IMG/VR virus record: IMGVR_UViG_3300025311_000004
Span: 1 to 46,658 of that record
DNA: 46,658 nt
Strand: one strand, 5' to 3'
Source of the DNA: a virus
Part shown: in pieces, positions 5,607-46,658 of the stretch
Numbering within the stretch: position 1 is the stretch's first letter
Layout: every line of letters begins with the position of its first letter
The notes under the pieces: model-generated
Told to the model about the DNA's origin: nothing
The model's database searches: none
The model's input: the letters and a program-made list of their open reading frames with translations, nothing else
Made by a program: the position numbers and the translations under genes

Positions 5607-7235
5607 ATGGAACCAATCATTGAAATTAACGAATCAGCAGAATTCAATGAATGGAAACCTACACCTAAACAAGCTAAGTTTCTAGAATTACCCTATGATA
5701 TATTAGAGGGATTTTATGCGGGTGCTGTTAATGCAGGTAAAACTCACGTATTGCTTGCATATATTTTAGTACATAAGTTTTATTTACGAAGCAATTTTAA
5801 GGGGTTATTTTTAAGACGTACATTTCCTGAACTAAAGAATGAAGTAATACCACGCAGCAGATTATTTTTCGAACATCCAACTATTGGTGGAACTTATAAT
5901 AAACAAGATAAATGTTGGACGTTTCCATCTGGTGCGCTTTTCTTTTTTGGTCATTGTGAAGATGAAGAAGATGTACATAACTACGATTCAATGCAGCCTA
6001 ATTACGTTGCATTTGATGAGTTAACATCATTTACTGAATGGCAATATTTATATATAACATTACAACGAGTTCGTGCTGCGACTGATAGTGGATTACCTGC
6101 AATAGTTCGTTCTGCGAGTAATCCTGGTAATATCGGACATAATTGGGTTCGCGCACGTTTTATTGACCCATGTCCAGAAGGATTAAAGGTATTAACTAAT
6201 AAGGCTGGAGTTAAAAGAATATTTATTCCAGCAACGGTTAAAGATAATCCTTATGTTAGTCAGCAGTATTTAAATCAGTTAGAGTCTTTACCTGAAGCTG
6301 AAAAGCAAGCTAAACTTTATGGTAATTGGTCAGCATATGAAGGTTCAGTATTTGATGAATTTAGGGATAAAACTTATCCTGATGAACCTGAAAATGCATT
6401 GCATGTAATTGAACCATTTGATATTCCATTATTTTGGCCTAAGATTTATTCTATAGATTGGGGATACGCGCCGCCAGCAATAAATTATATAGCATGTGGC
6501 GCGGTCACTCCAGATGAAAGAATAGTTCTTTATAAAGAAAAAGGTTGGCAGAAAACTAAAATTGCTGATTGGACAGCAGAAGTTAAAGAATGGGCTGATG
6601 TAGAAAATCCACGTATTATTAAACTTTGTAAATCAGCTTCACAAAAACGCGGACAAGAACATACAGTTCAATCTGAAGTTGAAAAAGGATTAGGTAGACC
6701 AGTTGAATTAACTAATAATGATCCTGGTAGTAGAATTGCTGGTAAGATGTTAATGCATGAATACTTTAGGTGGAAGCCTAAGTATATTCCATCATTAACG
6801 TCGCGCATTTATAATGACGAACAAGCAATGTGGTTGTTAAGAAATAGAGGAGTAGAAGAATATCAATCTTATTTAGATTCGTTTAGACCTATTAAAGAAG
6901 AAATTAATATACCAAAATTCTTAACATTTAACATTAATAAGTTATTTATAAATGCTATTAAATCTTGCGTTTATGATAAAGTTCATACTCAAGACGTAGC
7001 AGAATTTCCTGGTGATGATCCATATGATTCAGGAAGATATTTAATAGATGCTGCTGATCGTTATTTTAATGAAGCAGTAAATGAAAAGAAGAAGTTAGAT
7101 GATAGAAATAAATTAGATGAAATGTTACGTAAAACTGGTGATATGACAGCGTTTTATAGAGAGAGTAAGAAATTAGATAATACAGTAAGTATGAAACCAA
7201 TACGTAGATTTCATCATGGTAGAAGATATACCTAA
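5607..7235 (+). CDS. terL: Terminase large subunit (ATPase-nuclease)
   Basis: 542 residues. Packages DNA into proheads. Q-like motif TPKQAKF (19-25), Walker A GAVNAGKT (39-46), Walker B YVAFDEL (133-139, acidic pair D138/E139) and coupling motif SNPG (171-174). The C-terminal RNase-H-like nuclease starts at YSIDWGYAP (Asp284) and has a late acidic site in DDPYDSGRYLIDAADRY near the end. Full length for the family. Ends inside the start of the next small gene. Confidence 0.95.
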   Translation: MEPIIEINESAEFNEWKPTPKQAKFLELPYDILEGFYAGAVNAGKTHVLLAYILVHKFYLRSNFKGLFLRRTFPELKNEVIPRSRLFFEHPTIGGTYNKQDKCWTFPSGALFFFGHCEDEEDVHNYDSMQPNYVAFDELTSFTEWQYLYITLQRVRAATDSGLPAIVRSASNPGNIGHNWVRARFIDPCPEGLKVLTNKAGVKRIFIPATVKDNPYVSQQYLNQLESLPEAEKQAKLYGNWSAYEGSVFDEFRDKTYPDEPENALHVIEPFDIPLFWPKIYSIDWGYAPPAINYIACGAVTPDERIVLYKEKGWQKTKIADWTAEVKEWADVENPRIIKLCKSASQKRGQEHTVQSEVEKGLGRPVELTNNDPGSRIAGKMLMHEYFRWKPKYIPSLTSRIYNDEQAMWLLRNRGVEEYQSYLDSFRPIKEEINIPKFLTFNINKLFINAIKSCVYDKVHTQDVAEFPGDDPYDSGRYLIDAADRYFNEAVNEKKKLDDRNKLDEMLRKTGDMTAFYRESKKLDNTVSMKPIRRFHHGRRYT

Positions 7236-28581: not shown

Positions 28582-28592
28582 AAAATTTGATA

Positions 28593-28666
28593 TGGGCCAA
28601 ATAGGATTTGAACCTATAACCTAATGATTATGAGTCATTTGCTCTGACCATTTGAGCTATTGGCCC
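28593..28666 (-). tRNA. tRNA-Met (CAU), elongator type
   Basis: 74 bases. Acceptor GGGCCAA/TTGGCCC, D arm GCTC/GAGC, anticodon stem AATGA/TCATT with loop CTCATAA (anticodon CAU), T arm ATAGG/CCTAT with loop TTCAAAT, discriminator A. CCA is not encoded. The anticodon stem lacks the three G-C pairs of initiators, so it is elongator Met; an Ile2 (lysidine) identity is less likely. Confidence 0.95.
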
Positions 28667-28674
28667 ATTAATAA

Positions 28675-28878
28675 TCAATCCACTTTTATTTTAGTTTCAG
28701 TTCTTTTTACAATTTGAACTAAATGAAAATCAGGATTTTTTAATAGATTATCTATAAAAGGCTGAGCATACTCTATCACACTAAATTTCTTTTCGATTAT
28801 AGAATATGAATCAGTATAATAAACTATTATTTGTTCCTCTTTAGGAACAAGATGATTCATCGAATTAATCCAGTTCAT
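28675..28878 (-). CDS. Small protein, unknown
   Basis: 67 residues from ATG 28878 (MNWINSMNHL...); a TTG start three codons earlier is also possible. GGATTGATTTAT precedes it. Mixed fold (IIVYYTDSYSIIEKKFSVIEY). Lies between the two tRNA genes. Confidence 0.5.
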   Translation of the reverse strand: MNWINSMNHLVPKEEQIIVYYTDSYSIIEKKFSVIEYAQPFIDNLLKNPDFHLVQIVKRTETKIKVD

Positions 28879-28951
28879 ATAAATCAATCCACAATAATCT
28901 TAATTACATCAGTTGAATTTGTTTTCATTGAATTTTATCCTTAAATTTAAA

Positions 28952-29028
28952 TGGTGCCCCAGGTCAGATTCGAACTGACACTTTAATGATTTTAAGTCAT
29001 TTTTCTCTGCCTATTGGAATACTGGGGC
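28952..29028 (-). tRNA. tRNA with anticodon UAA (Leu by codon), short variable loop
   Basis: 77 bases including an encoded CCA. Acceptor GCCCCAG/CTGGGGC, 3-4 base-pair D arm, anticodon stem AATGA/TCATT with loop CTTAAAA (UAA, reading UUA), 5-base variable loop AAAGT, T arm GTCAG/CTGAC with TTCGAAT, discriminator A. UUA is the dominant Leu codon of the phage, so the gene makes sense. Bacterial Leu tRNAs normally have a long variable arm, so its true amino acid is uncertain. Confidence 0.9.
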
Positions 29029-31003: not shown

Positions 31004-31534
31004 TTAAACTTCCCCAATTCCGCCAAATTTTTTAATCATTTCAGTTTCTTCTTTTCTTCGTTCCTGTTGAGATTCATTTTTACAGGTTCTACATTGTCTG
31101 CCTTTTATTGGATGAGTATAAGTATTTTCTTCGTTGTACTCATGACCTTGGGGACAATGTGTTTTAATTGTATTATGAATTCCTGGTTCTAATCTTTTAT
31201 TTATTATTGTATCATTTATATTTTCAGCTTGCGTTCCAATATATAAATGTCCTGGATTCCAACAGTTCTTATTATTACATTTATGATTCACTTGTAATGT
31301 ACTAAGAAAATTATAGTCTAAAAATAAATGTGCTGATAACCTATGGATATATCTCATTCCTCCATTATACCATACCATTCCATAACCACCATTACTAGTT
31401 TGGCTTTTACCACTTATACCTCCAATCCATAACCAACATTCAGTTTCTATATCAATTTTGGTTTTTGAAATTAAACGATAACATAACTTACTATTTAATT
31501 TCAAATCTTGAAAGCTCTTGATAATTGTGTCCAT
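31004..31534 (-). CDS. HNH homing-type endonuclease
   Basis: 176 residues. Core motif: HR at 64-65, NHKCNNKNCWNPGHLYIGT (83-101) with His84, Asn93 and His96, as in NUMOD-less HNH nucleases; then a second zinc site CPQGHEY (127-133) and CRTC (148-151). Starts inside the end of the polymerase gene (44-base overlap). Its position right after the polymerase gene and a paralogue on the other side suggest selfish insertion. Confidence 0.85.
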   Translation of the reverse strand: MDTIIKSFQDLKLNSKLCYRLISKTKIDIETECWLWIGGISGKSQTSNGGYGMVWYNGGMRYIHRLSAHLFLDYNFLSTLQVNHKCNNKNCWNPGHLYIGTQAENINDTIINKRLEPGIHNTIKTHCPQGHEYNEENTYTHPIKGRQCRTCKNESQQERRKEETEMIKKFGGIGEV

Positions 31535-34001
31535 ATTCTAGTTCAACTGGTATAATTAAGTTACCTTCACCTAATGTACACTTATCAAAATTAATTGGTT
31601 TTTCAAGTTCTTCTTTAATTATTAATCCAGCTTCTAACTTCCTCTCAATTCTTACCATTGTCAATAGCGCATCATGAGCTTCAACTAATATTAATATCCA
31701 AGGCGCGCGACTTCTAATTCTCATTGCAGCAGCTTTTAAATGCTCACTTACAGTACGCTGAGGAATATAACTATATGCTTGTCTAAATAATTCATCTCCC
31801 CATCGTTCAAAGAAAGTTCTAATTCCACCAACTTCAGCATCTATTCCATAAGGTATTGGAGCAATTAATCTCCCGTCTTTTTGTAATGCTTGTTGAATAC
31901 CTAGATGGAATACTTCTTTTATCTTCGGTTGCTTCCTATGAAAGATTTTAATTGCGCGGTCTGCCACGAGTTCAGAGATTCTGAAATCAATTTTATTCTT
32001 GCGAGCCTGAGTATTAACTTCAATGGAAGCGCGTTTTTTTGACGCTCCAAGATGGCATGCATGTCGCAAAGTTTTACCACAGAACCTAATTGGCGTTTCT
32101 TTACCATTGTTAAACTTCTTTGAATGTTCTTGCCATTCACCACCAAAAAACCATGATGCGGTTAATGCATGATAATCAACTTTATCAATTAGCTCTAAGG
32201 CATCATAATCACCAGCTAATTTAAATATAACTCGTGCTTCAGCTTGAGATAAATCGCCTTGAACAAATATGCAACCTTCATCAGGAACTAAAAACCTTCT
32301 TATATCTTGACCAATATCACCATGTTTAGTAATAGTCTGAAATGCCATACCGCGCGATTGCTTACGTTTAACTTTAACACCAGACTCATTAACTTTCTTA
32401 TATTCAACATTAGGTCTTATTGGTGGGTCTTGTTGAGTAGTAGAAGAACGGCCGGTTTCTAAACATAAAAAGAAACTTGTTCTCATTCGCCCATCAAAAT
32501 CTGGTAATGCATATAAATAAGAATCAAGTGTTTTCTTAACTCTACGATTTTCTAATATTAGTTCTATTCCACGAGCATGAACTGGATTCTTAACTACATT
32601 ATTAAGTAAGCTAATCAATACTTCTTCACCAGTTCCTTGACGAAGTGGTAATTTCCAAGTTTCATAAAGTAACTTACCTACCTGTTGCCATGAACCAGTA
32701 TTGATATATTCCTTAGTAATATGAAATAACTCATGACGTTGCTGTTCATCGCGTTCAATATATTTAGTAATGAGTTCGCGACGTACATCTTCATTACAAC
32801 GAAATCCAACTTGTTCTATTGCGGTATCAGTTTCATTAAAAGCATAAAGTGAATGTAATGGAAGAAGGAAATTACGATAATAATCATTTAAGTGTAACTC
32901 ATCTATATCAGACTGCATTGCATCATTAATTTCTTTTGTTACACAACAATCCTTACCACAACCTATCATTAAATCATCTAAAGAACCTTCATACATTCCT
33001 TCATCTTTATAATAAGGTTCTTCAGTAAATATTGAAGTATTAAAAGCAAGTCCTTTAGGTAGTTCGGGATTTATTGCAAATGATTTATACATTGTATCAT
33101 CTTGCAAACCGCGCACTGTAAATCCAAATCGTTTTATTTTATCTCTATCATAACCAAAGTTTTGTCCTATTACATCATGTTGAGATAAGAAGTTGGAATA
33201 CAATAACCAACATCTAACTATCTCATTCTTTGGCATTGATGAATAGTTTTCCCACATAGGTAATACAAATGCTTCATCTTTATTAAAAGCAGTACCCATC
33301 ATTATTGGAATACATTTATGAGCTTCAATGTCAATAGATGGATGAATGGATGACGAATATTTATTTAATAACTGTTCTAACTGCCACGAAGATTTGATAA
33401 TAATTATATTACGTTTTGGTGTACGTATTTCAGGGAAATCAGATTGAATCTTAGCACGTCTTAAATCAAATAGCATTACTTCTTTATTCCAATAACCTTT
33501 AACATCACCATCTTGATGTAATATATGTGCTGGATGATAAGTAGGTACGCACTTAAATCCCATTCCATTTATAATACTACCGCGCCATGCTTGAATACCA
33601 CCAGCTACATAATTACCTTCTTTATCTTTTTTACCGCTCTTTCCAGTTAATGCATATAAAGCAGTTCCACCTAAAGGAACAATTACGTTAGGTTTAAGTT
33701 GAGAAATTTCTGTATGTAATTCATTGAACTGTTGATCTAAATCTATTCCTACTGAATTAGCACGAACTTTAAATGAAACTTTCTTACCTTTTTTAGGATT
33801 AGATGGAACCATGAATTTACATGCATTAGTAACCCAACATTCATCACGATTAATACCTACAGCAGATAAGAGCATATTAAAGAACTTACCACTTGGACCA
33901 GTAAATGGTTTACCAGTAACTTCTTCGTCGTAGCTTGGACTTTCTCCTACAAAACAAATTCTAGGATTTCTAGGTCCAATGCCAGGTACATATACTTGCA
34001 T
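31491..34001 (-). CDS. Uracil-DNA-glycosylase-like/exonuclease/family A DNA polymerase fusion
   Basis: 836 residues. (1) 1-180: UDG family 4/5-like domain with FVGESP (17-22), GKPFTGPSGKFF (30-41) and YHPAHIL (155-161). (2) About 195-370: 3'-5' exonuclease with DIE (224-226) and NFGYD (281-285). (3) About 380-836: family A polymerase with motif A GDLSQAEAR (Asp583), motif B R639-x3-K643 and motif C HD (776-777). Motif B has His647 where most enzymes have Phe/Tyr/Leu, and Leu651 in place of the usual Tyr. Replicates the phage genome; the UDG part may recognise uracil or act as a clamp. Confidence 0.9.
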   Translation of the reverse strand: MQVYVPGIGPRNPRICFVGESPSYDEEVTGKPFTGPSGKFFNMLLSAVGINRDECWVTNACKFMVPSNPKKGKKVSFKVRANSVGIDLDQQFNELHTEISQLKPNVIVPLGGTALYALTGKSGKKDKEGNYVAGGIQAWRGSIINGMGFKCVPTYHPAHILHQDGDVKGYWNKEVMLFDLRRAKIQSDFPEIRTPKRNIIIIKSSWQLEQLLNKYSSSIHPSIDIEAHKCIPIMMGTAFNKDEAFVLPMWENYSSMPKNEIVRCWLLYSNFLSQHDVIGQNFGYDRDKIKRFGFTVRGLQDDTMYKSFAINPELPKGLAFNTSIFTEEPYYKDEGMYEGSLDDLMIGCGKDCCVTKEINDAMQSDIDELHLNDYYRNFLLPLHSLYAFNETDTAIEQVGFRCNEDVRRELITKYIERDEQQRHELFHITKEYINTGSWQQVGKLLYETWKLPLRQGTGEEVLISLLNNVVKNPVHARGIELILENRRVKKTLDSYLYALPDFDGRMRTSFFLCLETGRSSTTQQDPPIRPNVEYKKVNESGVKVKRKQSRGMAFQTITKHGDIGQDIRRFLVPDEGCIFVQGDLSQAEARVIFKLAGDYDALELIDKVDYHALTASWFFGGEWQEHSKKFNNGKETPIRFCGKTLRHACHLGASKKRASIEVNTQARKNKIDFRISELVADRAIKIFHRKQPKIKEVFHLGIQQALQKDGRLIAPIPYGIDAEVGGIRTFFERWGDELFRQAYSYIPQRTVSEHLKAAAMRIRSRAPWILILVEAHDALLTMVRIERKLEAGLIIKEELEKPINFDKCTLGEGNLIIPVELEYGHNYQELSRFEIK

Positions 34002-40692: not shown

Positions 40693-42402
40693 TTATCTTT
40701 TACCTTTATTCATTATTCTTTGCGCGAGTTCCATTATGATATTCTTTTCTTCCCAAACTGGCATCTTACCTTTATTCATACTTGAGTGAAACGCGCGTCT
40801 TTTACTTTCAACTATTCCATCTAAATCTATATCTATTGTATTATCAGCATGCATATATCTAGCATTAATCTGAGTAGCCTTTTGTCCTATACGTGGAAAT
40901 CTACCTTCTGCTTGTTCTTCATTAGCAGGATTCCATTGTCTTTCATGCATAATACAATCAGCACAAGTTTGTAAATTTAATGCTTCACCGCTTGCTAATG
41001 TTGATGCAATAAGTAATCGATATTTAGTAGAATTAAACTTATCTTGAGTTTCACCACGTTCTAACGAACTCATTTCAGCAGTTAATTTTAATACAGGTGG
41101 AAACGCATTTTCATTACACCATTTTTCCATCTGATTAAATATTAATCTACCACATTCTTTATGATGAACGAAGATAACTAATTTTCTATCAGTTTCTTCT
41201 AAAAATTCTTGTGCTAATTCTACCGTAGTTGGAACTTTACTAATACCAATTATCTGACGCATTGCATTAAAGGTATCATTTAATTGGCGTGAAACATCAA
41301 ATGAACCTTCGGTTCCTTCTAATATAGCGTCTTTCATAATCGCGCGAATTACATCTTCTTCTTTATTATATGCTTTACGCGCATGTTCGGGAACTTCACA
41401 TATATTACGTGTTCGATTTATTAATGGTAACTCAGGTAATACTTCAATACGTTCACGTCTAATTTGAATATGCTTAGTTAATTCGCGGAATTTTTCAGGA
41501 TTAAGAATTCCACCTTCAACTACTTTACCGCCATAACCTAAGTAGGTATCCACCCAACGATTAATAAATTGTTGTCTTTCAGGGAATAGCTTAGAGTCCA
41601 AAATATTTAGTATATTAAAATATTCACTACCACGATTTTTCCAGGGAGTTCCACTTAAAGCAATTACTTGTGGAATTTCTGATGCTAACCTACGAACTGC
41701 TTTAGTTTGAATTGCATCAGGATTTTTAATTGCTTGACATTCATCTAAAATAAGAGTTTTAACTCCCATTTCCAAAAATTCTTCAGGAGATTTATTTCTC
41801 AATCCTGCATATGACGTTATATAGTTCATATTCGGCCACAATATATCACGACTACTATTTATCGGTTGTGGCATTGAATCTGGATCTATAACGCGCACAA
41901 TTTCTTTACCATGTTGATATTTAGAACCGGCTTTAGTTACCCAAATAAATGGCTCGGAGATTAACTTATTAAACTTTAAGTAAGCTAACGCTTGCATTGT
42001 CTTGCCTAATCCACAATCATCAGCAATAAGAAAGCGTCCGTTATTCTGTTCAATAAGACGCGCACCTATTACTTGAAATGGATATAATCTATGTGCTCCA
42101 CAAATTAAACACTCATTCTTATTCCAATCATGAAAACAATTAGGATTAGTAACATCCCAAATTAACTTATCATAATTAGATAACGCGCGTGGTTTAGTTA
42201 GTATTAAATGATTACATTCTAAAGTAATTAATTGACTGACACCTAATTTAGGATGATTTAATTCCTGAATAGATTTAGTCTTAGCTACTTTATTACATGT
42301 TGGACAATGTTCACTTAGTTGCGTTACAAGAGACATAAAATCAAAATTATTAATTAGATGGTTTAAGTTATTTGGATGTAGATGTTTTTTAGTTATAGTC
42401 AT
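40693..42402 (-). CDS. SNF2-family helicase/translocase
   Basis: 569 residues. N-terminal zinc sites (CPTC 33-36; CLICG 98-102), Walker A DDCGLGKT (128-135), DECQ box (220-223), SGTP (250-253) and motif VI EGRFPRIGQ (499-507). A complete two-lobe SNF2 engine that could remodel protein-DNA complexes or restart replication forks. Overlaps the upstream small gene by 14 bases. Confidence 0.9.
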   Translation of the reverse strand: MTITKKHLHPNNLNHLINNFDFMSLVTQLSEHCPTCNKVAKTKSIQELNHPKLGVSQLITLECNHLILTKPRALSNYDKLIWDVTNPNCFHDWNKNECLICGAHRLYPFQVIGARLIEQNNGRFLIADDCGLGKTMQALAYLKFNKLISEPFIWVTKAGSKYQHGKEIVRVIDPDSMPQPINSSRDILWPNMNYITSYAGLRNKSPEEFLEMGVKTLILDECQAIKNPDAIQTKAVRRLASEIPQVIALSGTPWKNRGSEYFNILNILDSKLFPERQQFINRWVDTYLGYGGKVVEGGILNPEKFRELTKHIQIRRERIEVLPELPLINRTRNICEVPEHARKAYNKEEDVIRAIMKDAILEGTEGSFDVSRQLNDTFNAMRQIIGISKVPTTVELAQEFLEETDRKLVIFVHHKECGRLIFNQMEKWCNENAFPPVLKLTAEMSSLERGETQDKFNSTKYRLLIASTLASGEALNLQTCADCIMHERQWNPANEEQAEGRFPRIGQKATQINARYMHADNTIDIDLDGIVESKRRAFHSSMNKGKMPVWEEKNIIMELAQRIMNKGKR

Positions 42403-44277: not shown

Positions 44278-44400
44278 TCAATCCTTATGCTTAAAACAAA
44301 TTCTAATAAACTTATCTTTTTTACCTTTTTCACGTTCAATAATACAACCACAATCTAACTTAATTATCGAACGATTTTTAGTAACGAATTTTATTGTCAT
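44278..44400 (-). CDS. First gene of the leftward replication operon, 40 residues
   Basis: MTIKFVTKNRS..., with CGC (18-20) and CFKH (35-38) forming a possible zinc site like that of the protein at 28393-28581. It is the first frame after the strong leftward promoter. Its ribosome-binding site (AAGTAACGTGATTT) is weak. Confidence 0.55.
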   Translation of the reverse strand: MTIKFVTKNRSIIKLDCGCIIEREKGKKDKFIRICFKHKD

Positions 44401-44558
44401 AAATCACGTTACTTTCAGCAAAAATTAGTAAAATTGCCCGGTCAGTCTCATTGCAATTCTGGTGCCAATCTAGGCTCGTTCTGGCTCGTTTCCCGACGGC
44501 TGAACCGTCCTAAGTTCAATCGAATCAAGCACTTAGCTAGACCTCTGCTCACCTACCT
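44401..44558 (-). promoter_or_regulatory. Leader of the leftward operon
   Basis: About 150 bases between the promoter start site and the first gene. It contains a GC hairpin GACGG-ctgaa-CCGTC (44495-44509) and no clear T-run after it. May stabilise or attenuate the operon message. Confidence 0.5.
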
Positions 44559-44587
44559 ATCATAGCATACCCTATCCAGCCTGTCAA
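44559..44587 (-). promoter_or_regulatory. Strong leftward sigma70 promoter
   Basis: On the minus strand, TTGACA (44587-44582), 17-base spacer and TATGAT (44564-44559). Start near 44552. It should drive the whole leftward replication operon. Its -35 end lies in CCTGTCAAGTG (44580-44590), repeated inverted at 44699-44709 around the -35 of the rightward promoter. Confidence 0.85.
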
Positions 44588-44640
44588 GTGCGGCTCGATT
44601 GACACACTACTAATCCGTGTTAGTTTAGAGTAAGTAAAAA

Positions 44641-44685
44641 TATATAAAAAAAAAAGAACACTACCTCTCATCTGGTATGTAGTGT
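44641..44685 (-). terminator. Intrinsic terminator for leftward transcripts
   Basis: Stem ACACTAC (44658-44664)/GTAGTGT (44679-44685). Read leftward, it is followed by a T-rich run from the A-tract at 44640-44657. It would stop transcripts entering from the right before the leftward promoter. The A-tract might also act as an UP element for the rightward promoter. Confidence 0.75.
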
Positions 44686-44701
44686 GGTCGGATTGACACA
44701 C

Positions 44702-44730
44702 TTGACAGGCGATAGAGGGCATGATAGAAT
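44702..44730 (+). promoter_or_regulatory. Rightward sigma70 promoter P1
   Basis: TTGACA (44702-44707), 17-base spacer, TAGAAT (44725-44730). Start near 44737. The frame beginning at 44721 overlaps this promoter and would start before the RNA does, so it is not called as a gene. Confidence 0.8.
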
Positions 44731-44736
44731 GGATAA

Positions 44737-44913
44737 TAGCCCGATTCGGTCGTTCGGTGGTCGTAAGTCTAGTCAGGTCAGTTACTTACGGTGAACTGAA
44801 ACGGGCCAAAACGTCGAGGAGTTCAATGGTAGTTCGGTGGCATCGTCGAGAAATGCCTAGTAACGTTTTGGTAATGTCTAAAGTTTTCTCAATACTGTGT
44901 CAACCTAGACACA
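44737..44913 (+). ncRNA. Possible structured RNA from promoter P1
   Basis: No gene. Stems: GCCCG (44739-44743)/CGGGC (44802-44806) enclosing CGTAAGT (44762-44768)/ACTTACG (44784-44790); then CCAAAACG (44806-44813)/CGTTTTGG (44864-44871) and TGTGTC (44896-44901)/GACACA (44908-44913). CGTCGAG occurs twice. Could be a leader or an independent RNA; no strong terminator before the next promoter. Confidence 0.45.
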
Positions 44914-44942
44914 TTGACAAGCGATTCGAGATGTGTTATGAT
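44914..44942 (+). promoter_or_regulatory. Rightward sigma70 promoter P2
   Basis: TTGACA (44914-44919), 17-base spacer, TATGAT (44937-44942). Start near 44949. Followed by about 250 bases without a gene before the coding sequence at 45203. Confidence 0.85.
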
Positions 44943-44948
44943 GGGTTT

Positions 44949-45202
44949 GTTAGGTTGATTGGAGTTAGCTACCTTTCAGTCTGACTCAGGGTTATATAGG
45001 GACGACAAAAGATTGGATTCTAGGAAGGTCCAATTTACAAAACGTCCGGCATCCTAGTGCAAATCGTAGGACATAAACCCTACGGCCCTGATATACTTTT
45101 TATCTAGGATGTAATTTTTACATGTTGACAAGTTCCGAGATTCATGTCAACATGTAATTGTTCGTTGTTAGTAGTTCATTGACAAATAAAGAGGTAAATC
45201 AA
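44949..45202 (+). promoter_or_regulatory. Long structured leader of the 120-residue protein gene
   Basis: Contains mutually exclusive stems: ATTGGA (45012-45017)/TCCAAT (45029-45034) versus CTAGGA (45020-45025)/TCCTAG (45052-45057), then CGTAGG/CCTACG (about 45065-45084), and the 13-base inverted repeat at 45118-45157. A TATACT at 45092-45097 could be a further -10. The pattern suggests conditional control of the downstream gene. Confidence 0.45.
45118..45157. promoter_or_regulatory. Perfect 13-base inverted repeat containing TTGACA boxes
   Basis: TTACATGTTGACA (45118-45130) and TGTCAACATGTAA (45145-45157) around a 14-base spacer. Each arm holds a TTGACA in opposite orientation, with only weak CAACAT at -10 distance. 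Looks like an operator or symmetrical promoter. Lies 45 bases upstream of ATG 45203. Confidence 0.65.
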
Positions 45203-45565
45203 ATGGCAGATGGTTCTATCCCTAAGTCTGGTAAGACGACTATTTCGACTGTTGCGGGAGTTACGCTTGCATCATTGGGAAAGCCTGATGTAAACGTGGA
45301 GTATAACTGGTCTGAGTTCGCTACTGTAGAGGAAATGGAAGCGGCCGGCGAAACTCCGAGTAAGGTTGACATTCTTGCTTATGTAAACTCAATTCGTGAG
45401 CGTAATGCGTTGTCGAGCGCTCGTGCAAGTAAGATTAGTGAGTTTACTGAGGAAGTTCGTAACTCGCCTGAGTTCAAGCGTTCCGAGTTTATTAAGGCTG
45501 CTGTGGCCTTTGGTATGACTCAGGAGCAGGCAGAACAGTTGGCTTCGAGTAAGCTTACGCAGTAA
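45203..45565 (+). CDS. 120-residue protein of unknown function
   Basis: Start ATG 45203 with GAGGTAAATCAA upstream, preferred to an earlier start at 45158. MADGSIPKSGKTTIS..., then an acidic middle (TVEEMEAAGETPSKVDILAY) and helical C-terminus. The end, EFIKAAVAFGMTQEQAEQLA (92-111), closely matches part of the protein at 46156-46329. Codon use is less AT-biased than in the replication genes. Its own promoter region and strong ribosome-binding site suggest high early expression. Confidence 0.75.
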   Translation: MADGSIPKSGKTTISTVAGVTLASLGKPDVNVEYNWSEFATVEEMEAAGETPSKVDILAYVNSIRERNALSSARASKISEFTEEVRNSPEFKRSEFIKAAVAFGMTQEQAEQLASSKLTQ

Positions 45566-45581
45566 TTAATCGTAAACTTAT

Positions 45582-45624
45582 ACAGGATAGCTATTGACAA
45601 ACGTAGGTTGATATGCTATCCTGT
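45582..45624 (+). promoter_or_regulatory. Promoter P4 within a 10-base inverted repeat
   Basis: TTGACA (45594-45599), 17-base spacer, TATCCT (45617-45622). The core lies inside ACAGGATAGC (45582-45591)/GCTATCCTGT (45615-45624), so a dimeric regulator could cover it; equally the pair may end transcription from the gene ending at 45565. Start near 45629. Confidence 0.65.
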
Positions 45625-45628
45625 AATT

Positions 45629-45880
45629 ATTAGATGCCTTAAGCAAGCATCTAACGGTCCTAATGAGTTTTGCACGTTATCGCGTTAGGACAAAAATAAA
45701 AATGCGCGGATTAGTAAGCTATCGCTAGTGTAGCCGAACATCCTAATTAATAGCTAGCTAGCATACAAAGCCTAGTAAGGGTTAGGTAGCTCCTAATACC
45801 TGCTAGGCTTTTGTATTTGATTAGACAAAACAATAGCCGATTAGGAATGTAAGTTAACCTAATCGGCTATTGTTGTTTTT
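45629..45880 (+). ncRNA. Putative multi-hairpin small RNA
   Basis: About 250 bases between a promoter and a strong terminator, with no gene on the plus strand. Hairpins in order: TTAGATGC/GCATCTAA (45630-45654); GTCCTAATG/CGTTAGGAC (45657-45691); ATTAG/CTAAT region around 45710-45748 with inner GCTA/TAGC; TACAAAGCCTAG/CTAGGCTTTTGTA (45764-45815) with inner AGG, TTAGG-tagct-CCTAA and CCT; AACAATAGCCGATTAGG/CCTAATCGGCTATTGTT (45829-45874). Four of them share a CCTAA/TTAGG core, permitting alternative pairings. Confidence 0.65.
45829..45880 (+). terminator. Strong 17-base-pair terminator hairpin (bidirectional)
   Basis: Perfect 17-base stem, 12-base loop, followed on the plus strand by G then TTTTT (45876-45880). 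On the minus strand it is followed by TTTTGTC, so it can also end the leftward tiny-gene transcript, whose last stop codon is at 45879-45881. Confidence 0.85.
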
Positions 45881-45998
45881 AGTTAACTCGGCAGAGTTCA
45901 AGCATTCGATAATTGCCAGCGTGGTAATAGAAAACAAACGCCAGCAAATCACTTTCCCTATTAATGCGATACGTAACTCCATTGATTGTGATATTCAC
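45879..45998 (-). CDS. 39-residue early protein
   Basis: GTG start at 45998 overlapping the upstream stop (GTGA), ribosome-binding site GGAGTAAACAA. Reads VNITINGVTYRINRESDLLA (first residue Met), then aromatic FVFYYHAGNYR. The stop touches the terminator. Unknown. Confidence 0.6.
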   Translation of the reverse strand: MNITINGVTYRINRESDLLAFVFYYHAGNYRMLELCRVN

Positions 45999-46159
45999 TT
46001 GTTTACTCCATTCTTTTCGTTAGTCACGTCAGCAAACCTAACGCGCCATCTGTAATTAGTTATAAAGTAAGTTCGCTTACCTACTTCAATAAATACAGAC
46101 AGACCGCGATAAGCCTTCCAATAAACATGAATCGTTAACGCGAAGTGTAGTCTTGTCAT
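45995..46159 (-). CDS. 54-residue basic early protein
   Basis: MTRLHFALTIHVYWKAYRGL..., beta-like with basic/aromatic content (RTYFITNYRWRVRF). GGAGGTAAAGAGCAA precedes ATG 46159; both ends overlap neighbouring genes. Unknown. Confidence 0.65.
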   Translation of the reverse strand: MTRLHFALTIHVYWKAYRGLSVFIEVGKRTYFITNYRWRVRFADVTNEKNGVNK

Positions 46160-46329
46160 TTGCTCTTTACCTCCTTTGTAAACTTCAGTATCTTAGCTGG
46201 TCCTTCGCTTACCTTAGCCTTTTCATTTGCTAGCTGTTCGGCTAGTTCAGGTTCTATTCCGAAGTCTATAGCCGCTTCTATAAACTCCTGACGGCGCGTT
46301 TTGAATTGCGCGATTCGGCCTAGTCTCAT
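46156..46329 (-). CDS. 57-residue protein sharing a motif with the 45203 protein
   Basis: MRLGRIAQFKTRRQ..., then EFIEAAIDFGIEPELAEQLA (15-34), nearly the same pattern as the C-terminus of the 120-residue protein at 45203; basic tail. AAGGTAACTAA precedes ATG 46329. ATGA overlap with the next gene. The motif may be a UBA-like binding helix bundle. Confidence 0.7.
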   Translation of the reverse strand: MRLGRIAQFKTRRQEFIEAAIDFGIEPELAEQLANEKAKVSEGPAKILKFTKEVKSK

Positions 46330-46418
46330 TTAGTTACCTTCTGCCATTAGCTAGATACTAACTAGAATGCCCTAGAATCGCTTACAAGTAACTCTAGGGC
46401 ATATTAGAAGGTATTAAG

Positions 46419-46625
46419 CTACATCTTAGCAATCAACCTTGCATACATCCTTCTGACTACTTGCTTACTTACTGCTAACCGTAATTCGCGCGGCGCTGGA
46501 ATCGCTCGCGCTACTAGAATCATACCATTAGCAATATCAAATGTTTGTCGATTCACTTTCACGGCTCCACAATAAGGGCATGAAAAGTGATTGTGATGGG
46601 CTAGACAAATTGGGCATTGAGTCAT
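46419..46625 (-). CDS. Zinc-ribbon early protein
   Basis: 68 residues: CPIC (4-7), then H..H, CPYC (16-19) and a basic helical C-terminus (PRELRLAVSKQVVRRMYARL). GAGGATAACTAACC precedes ATG 46625. Zinc-bearing and basic, it may bind host RNA polymerase or nucleic acid. The gap 46330-46418 holds TTCTAATATGCCCTAGAGTT facing AACTCTAGGGCAT-like arms (about 46363-46406), a likely hairpin. Confidence 0.7.
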   Translation of the reverse strand: MTQCPICLAHHNHFSCPYCGAVKVNRQTFDIANGMILVARAIPAPRELRLAVSKQVVRRMYARLIAKM

Positions 46626-46639
46626 GGTTAGTTATCCTC

Positions 46640-46657
46640 TAGTTTACGTAGTATTTC
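46640..46657. repeat. Second copy of the terminal 18-base repeat
   Basis: Identical to bases 1-18; lies within the 3' part of the reading frame that continues from 147 through base 1. Base 46658 differs from base 19. Confidence 0.75.
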
Positions 46658-46658
46658 T

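Follow-up and report, generated by a model that had tools for sequence, protein, structure and literature searches.

The window analysed here, i.e., the whole stretch of 46,658 nt, is a 46.7-kb record of a dsDNA phage with ends that connect (both are spanned by contig L010, and positions 1-18 equal 46640-46657). The late genes, among them the terminase, lie in a block on the plus strand, and the early genes, including those for DNA polymerase, helicase, a Sak4-like protein and an exonuclease, in a block on the minus strand (Table 1). Two tRNA genes, Met(CAT) and Leu(TAA), are located where the late and early blocks meet (28592-29028, minus strand); Rfam and ARAGORN searches of the window returned these two only, and no tmRNA, 6S, pRNA or other family. 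All relatives of this phage are uncultured; among 50,697 phage records, the top match to the polymerase reaches 26%, and IMG/VR holds polymerase relatives of ~47-63% identity, many of them in ~46-kb contigs. The window exhibits no DNA similarity to phage records, an exact-pattern search for close relatives returned the identical contig only, and a host search against bacterial genomes gave nothing but 24-28% matches in two metagenome bins.

The interval under study follows the gene of a conserved small phage protein, for which PHROG gave no match. At this position 3' of the gene, referred to below as the slot, a promoter set within an inverted repeat is followed by two hairpins (H1 and H2), an A-rich middle and two terminators (T1 and T2), in that order. 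The promoter consists of TTGACA (45594-45599) and TATCCT (45617-45622) with a 17-bp spacer and an extended -10 TG; sites of the form TTGACA-N14-TG-N-TANNNT number four in the whole 46.7-kb genome, all of them within 44.6-45.6 kb. The first-pass annotation had placed this promoter in a 10-base inverted repeat; the promoter stands, but the repeat is perfect over 11 bp instead. Possibly, the repeat (45581-45625) acts as an operator or forms an RNA hairpin in read-through transcripts. Judged from the boxes, the RNA is predicted to start at 45629, 7 nt past the -10 box and one base 5' of H1.

Table 1. Positions of the features discussed in the text.
Feature	Position	Strand	Remarks
Terminase (late gene)	5607-7235	+	Late block on +
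DNA polymerase	31491-34001	-	Early block on -
Helicase	40693-42402	-	Early block on -
Gene of conserved ~115-aa small phage protein (120 aa in the window)	45203-45565	+	Marks the slot
Perfect 11-bp inverted repeat around the promoter	45581-45591 / 45615-45625	+	Fold z -6.2
Sigma70-type promoter TTGACA-17-TATCCT with extended -10 TG	45594-45622	+	Predicted start ~45629
H1, 5' hairpin, 8 bp, loop CUUAAGCAA	45630-45654	+	Conserved in pistol-associated RNAs
H2, GTCCTAA/TTAGGAC hairpin, long loop	45657-45691	+	Weak support
A-rich, poorly structured middle	45692-45762	+	45700-45766, z +0.6
T1, terminator-like hairpin GCCTAG..GGGTTAGG/CCTAATACC..CTAGGC, tail TTTTGTATTT	45763-45819	+	z -4.3
T2, 17-bp terminator AACAATAGCCGATTAGG / CCTAATCGGCTATTGTT	45829-45879	+	z -7.3; bidirectional
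Last small ORF of the convergent operon, 39 aa	45879-45998	-	Reads toward T2

The ~250 bases after the promoter, previously described as untranslated, indeed contain no convincing ORF; the longest has 21 codons (ATG at 45663), lacks a Shine-Dalgarno sequence and starts inside H2. The 17-base-pair terminator was likewise borne out, as the T2 stem comprises 17 perfect pairs (45829-45845 / 45858-45874). T2 also ends a convergent minus-strand operon of small ORFs, the last of which stops at ~45879. Neither T1 nor T2 was listed by a consensus terminator scan, probably because the loop and tail limits of the scan exclude both.

Further elements were observed on either side of the interval. Two mirror-image extended -10 promoters (44587, minus strand; 44702, plus strand) lie on either side of a poly-A tract at ~44637-44660, and a third is found at 44914 (plus strand), within 44554-44942; this region with its poly-A tract is a candidate replication origin. 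Similar A/T tracts occur near the slot in relatives, often next to repeated CTGTGCG or CTAATCGCG (as judged by eye). A perfect 13-bp inverted repeat 5' of the 120-aa gene (45118-45130 / 45145-45157) contains TTGACA and is a possible operator. Immediately 5' of the same gene is GTTCATTGACAA (45174-45185), which resembles a boxA antitermination element, and the related GTTC[AT]TTGACAA is present in the leaders of G011, G021 and G030. The convergent operon includes a small ORF (46159-46329, minus strand) that is, by likeness, a partial paralog of the 120-aa protein: its product is akin to the C-terminus of that protein, at 56% over a stretch of 27 aa as read in the identical contig.

Folding and the CCTAA/TTAGG repeats

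The segment 45625-45885 folds at -87.2 kcal/mol (z -6.4), a value matched by none of 200 shuffled sequences, and, once GC content is corrected for, no part of the genome folds more strongly than the one that holds the interval. Alongside T1 and T2 (Table 1), H1 reaches z -4.0; H2 alone yields z -2.3 (equalled by 4 of 200 shuffles; pairing probability 0.98-0.995), and the middle as a whole (45655-45766) is no better than shuffled sequence (z -0.15). Since the excess stability is confined to T1, T2 and H1, the fold signal is that of the terminators and the 5' hairpin. Thus, folding beyond shuffled controls, proposed as a check, holds for the entire interval but not for its middle.

CCTAA/TTAGG occurs seven times in 261 nt, where 0.8 copies would be expected, and nowhere in the genome is it denser. 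The first-pass annotation drew four stems in which CCTAA pairs with TTAGG; our analysis yields three (H2, T1 and T2), the fold offers no stable partner to the fourth CCTAA (45742), and a further stem in 45692-45762 is unsupported. Nor are these arms predicted to pair with one another to more than a negligible degree, as had been suggested: in the partition function each local stem exceeds 0.95, and pairing between copies from different hairpins never rises above 0.005. Since the arms pair locally, an RNA switch based on their interchange finds no support, and neither does the protein-binding array or sponge RNA envisaged with it, two of the CCTAA/TTAGG stems being terminators. A search for complementarity to other phage sequence gave nothing above 11-12-nt matches. 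Among the 49 slots surveyed, that of the window is the richest in CCTAA/TTAGG and three Rfam-confirmed pistol slots come next, a ranking noticed post hoc.

The slot in related phages

Orthologs of the 120-aa protein were found in dozens of related phages (profiles A1/A3); L004-L009, initially counted among them, turned out to be helicase genes matched by chance. The slot most often contains a GC hairpin with a small ORF, or a terminator alone. In the closest relative, G011, an 11-bp repeat with a promoter inside it is followed by a 53-aa ORF and two terminators, and a homolog of this ORF sought in the window was absent. In the slot of G024, a pistol ribozyme is preceded by a promoter and a 5' hairpin and followed by more hairpins and two terminators, and in L262 the gene is followed by a promoter in a repeat, a pistol RNA and two terminators. 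The nesting of promoter and repeat is the same in G011 as in the window, imperfect in G024 and in another phase in L262; a similar match in L085 was discarded, as it is located outside the slot and has the look of a palindrome at a gene end. Tandem terminators are common to the window, G011, G024 and L262. A T2-type stem, AATAGCC..GGCTATT, is shared by the window, G024, L199 and L192, the last terminator stem being AATAGCCTGTTAGG..CCTAACAGGCTATT in G024 and AATAGCCGATTAGG..CCTAATCGGCTATT in the window.

Pistol RNAs are often located near phage genes (PMC4604425). Against the Rfam gathering cut-off for RF02679 of 34.5 bits, the slot pistols of G023, G024 and L227 score 45.6, 39.7 and 41.3 bits, and the pistol of L338 scores 49.6 bits. 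The six-pair pseudoknot is intact in G023, G024 and L227, with both sides varying at five of six positions. A pattern scan for the pistol core gave further matches, two of them in the L270 and L327 slots and another in the L262 RNA described above. On the basis of these models, the RNAs are predicted to cleave themselves; where the P3 stem is long, we infer the exact cut site.

Other arrangements were seen as well. A twister-P1-like sequence in the slot of G025 (L058 1855-1918) scores 54 bits against a cut-off of 67. Pistols of 53 bits (L119 4611-4652; L249 3250-3313) lie directly 5' of a gene for a 53-aa homolog of the G011 slot ORF; by sequence, ribozyme and small gene thus trade places between positions.

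The H1 hairpin

An H1-type hairpin recurs in four pistol RNAs (G024, L227, L338 and L369) and in one other slot RNA (L192), so that the family consists of six sequences from distant phages. The loop CUUAAGCAA, or CCUAAGCAA/CACAAGCAA, sits on differing paired stems in G024, L227, L338 and L192, and in L369 on a bulged stem; we describe it as CYUAAGCAA-type, with C[CUA][CU]AAGCAA in G024 and L227. In ~4.1 Mb of sequence there are 48 distinct C[CT]TAAGCAA sites, four of which have stems of at least 7 bp (0.08 expected), and all four belong to slot or pistol RNAs. All eight stem pairs vary on both sides; however, the hairpins were picked for pairing, so the pair counts are not independent, and a leave-one-out covariance model provides the stronger test. 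With the window withheld from its construction, this model (R3) scores 45630-45654 at 30 bits (E=4.9e-7), the next match in the whole window having E=0.48. The covariation in related phages that had been called for is therefore seen in the H1 stems. The window RNA itself is known from one genotype, in a single identical copy.

The hairpin is found directly or shortly 3' of the pistol in G024, L227 and L338. Counted from the pistol start, it lies at 86 nt in G024, 78 nt in L227, 79 nt in L338 and ~130 nt in L369. It was not found in the pistol-carrying L262, L054, L270 and L327.

Nature of the interval

The earlier statement that no known RNA class is obvious here agrees with our searches, as Rfam at gathering thresholds and at E<=10 gives chance-level matches only. 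Pistol RF02679 has no match in the window at either setting, and for the pistol hallmarks, i.e., the P1 loop pseudoknot, the AUAAAUA linker and GCG after the pseudoknot strand, a family-specific model (R1, filters off) reaches at best 4.6 bits in 44400-46658 and at most 0.9 bits within the RNA. With the pistol RNAs of phages (RF02679; PMC4604425) the interval nevertheless shares its place directly behind an ortholog of the ~115-aa gene, the H1-type hairpin present in four of them, and terminators similar to those of G024 and L262. Unlike them, it lacks the pistol core, and its 5' end would be set by a promoter rather than by cleavage. It also resembles stand-alone phage or bacterial small RNA genes in having its own sigma70 promoter, a 5' hairpin, an A-rich middle and 3' terminators. 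The idea of a dedicated small-RNA unit thus gains support from the sequence, i.e., from the promoter, the untranslated interval, the two terminators and the equivalent layout in relatives. A non-coding RNA of ~190-250 bases is very probably produced here.

Given the absence of a recognisable ribozyme and the placement of the promoter at H1, we read the interval as encoding a small RNA of the phage, non-coding and started by a promoter, that corresponds to RNAs freed by pistol cleavage in relatives, and we give this reading an even chance of being correct. Host RNA polymerase would produce the RNA in the early region from its own strong promoter, to a length of ~190 nt when transcription ends at T1 or ~250 nt when it ends at T2. 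In relatives, the pistol would lie at or near the start of the slot RNA, and cleavage would yield a downstream RNA with its 5' end at or near the H1-type hairpin, since in G024 and L227 this hairpin lies almost directly 3' of the ribozyme. The window may have arrived at an equivalent 5' end in a different way, with the promoter so placed that the predicted transcript begins at H1. H1 would then cap the 5' end and T1/T2 the 3' end, while the single-stranded, A-rich middle would likely be the working part, whatever its target, through base pairing or protein binding. Against this reading it counts that in most relatives the slot is occupied by a hairpin with a small ORF or by a terminator alone, and that in G011 the same promoter type drives the 53-aa ORF.

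It would be possible, if on balance doubtful, that the interval is a plain transcription boundary, i.e., a promoter with a short leader, a tiny ORF or none, and, separating the convergent operons, a bidirectional terminator pair, the RNA having no function except insulation or attenuation. The limitation of excess folding to T1, T2 and H1, the position of T2 immediately behind the last minus-strand ORF, and the terminator standing alone in this slot in many relatives are consistent with such a boundary. However, insulation alone needs no dedicated promoter of the strongest class, and RNAs of other phages have conserved H1 on stems that covary. A self-cleaving ribozyme, degenerate or simply unrecognised, could also take the place of the pistol in the unstructured middle (45655-45766), as the slot is shared with pistol RNAs, G025 carries the weak twister-P1 match, and a pseudoknotted ribozyme would escape plain energy folding. 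This seems improbable to us: no Rfam ribozyme appears at E<=10, the family-specific pistol model finds nothing in the middle, and H1 lies 5' of the middle, yet 3' of the pistol in relatives.

We consider it quite unlikely that CCTAA/TTAGG acts at the DNA level, as iterons or as sites bound by a replication or repressor protein. The cluster is the densest in the genome, it holds 4 of the 27 genome-wide copies of TCCTAAT/ATTAGGA, and the candidate origin is ~1 kb off; but the copies are irregularly spaced and belong to the arms that form hairpins and terminators in the RNA, and the high counts in relatives come from ribozyme slots, in part owing to the ribozyme stems. Very unlikely, too, is a small peptide gene driven by the promoter (ATG 45663, 21 codons, MSFARYRVRTKIKMRGLVSYR). 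The G011 ORF, at the same place and behind the same promoter type, offers a precedent; however, the window holds no homolog of it, and the start codon, without a Shine-Dalgarno sequence, lies within H2.

Phage genomes commonly carry self-cleaving ribozymes, and to our knowledge the role of most of them is not established. More tentatively than in the reading above, we speculate that these phages possess a small RNA family starting with a conserved CYUAAGCAA hairpin and acting early in infection, which pistols would free from a longer transcript and for which, in the window, the promoter would have moved to the hairpin. If so, phage pistol ribozymes would gain a definite job. What is new here is the slot context, i.e., pistol ribozymes in relatives together with a 5' hairpin common to pistol-associated RNAs. 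At one and the same genome position there is thus a pistol RNA, a small ORF, or an RNA that shares the 5' hairpin but is driven by a promoter, and this natural swap renders the idea of a ribozyme freeing a small RNA directly testable.

Another conserved structured RNA with GUAG[CU]UCAG .. CUGAGUUAGAAUAGCC occupies the slot in L192 (1573-1700) and L199 (5898-6030); Rfam gave no match to it at the thresholds used. Its second domain (GUAG[CU]UCAG..CUGAGUUA) is missing from the window, but the slot and the AATAGCC..GGCTATT terminator are the same, and the L192 RNA begins with an H1-type hairpin.
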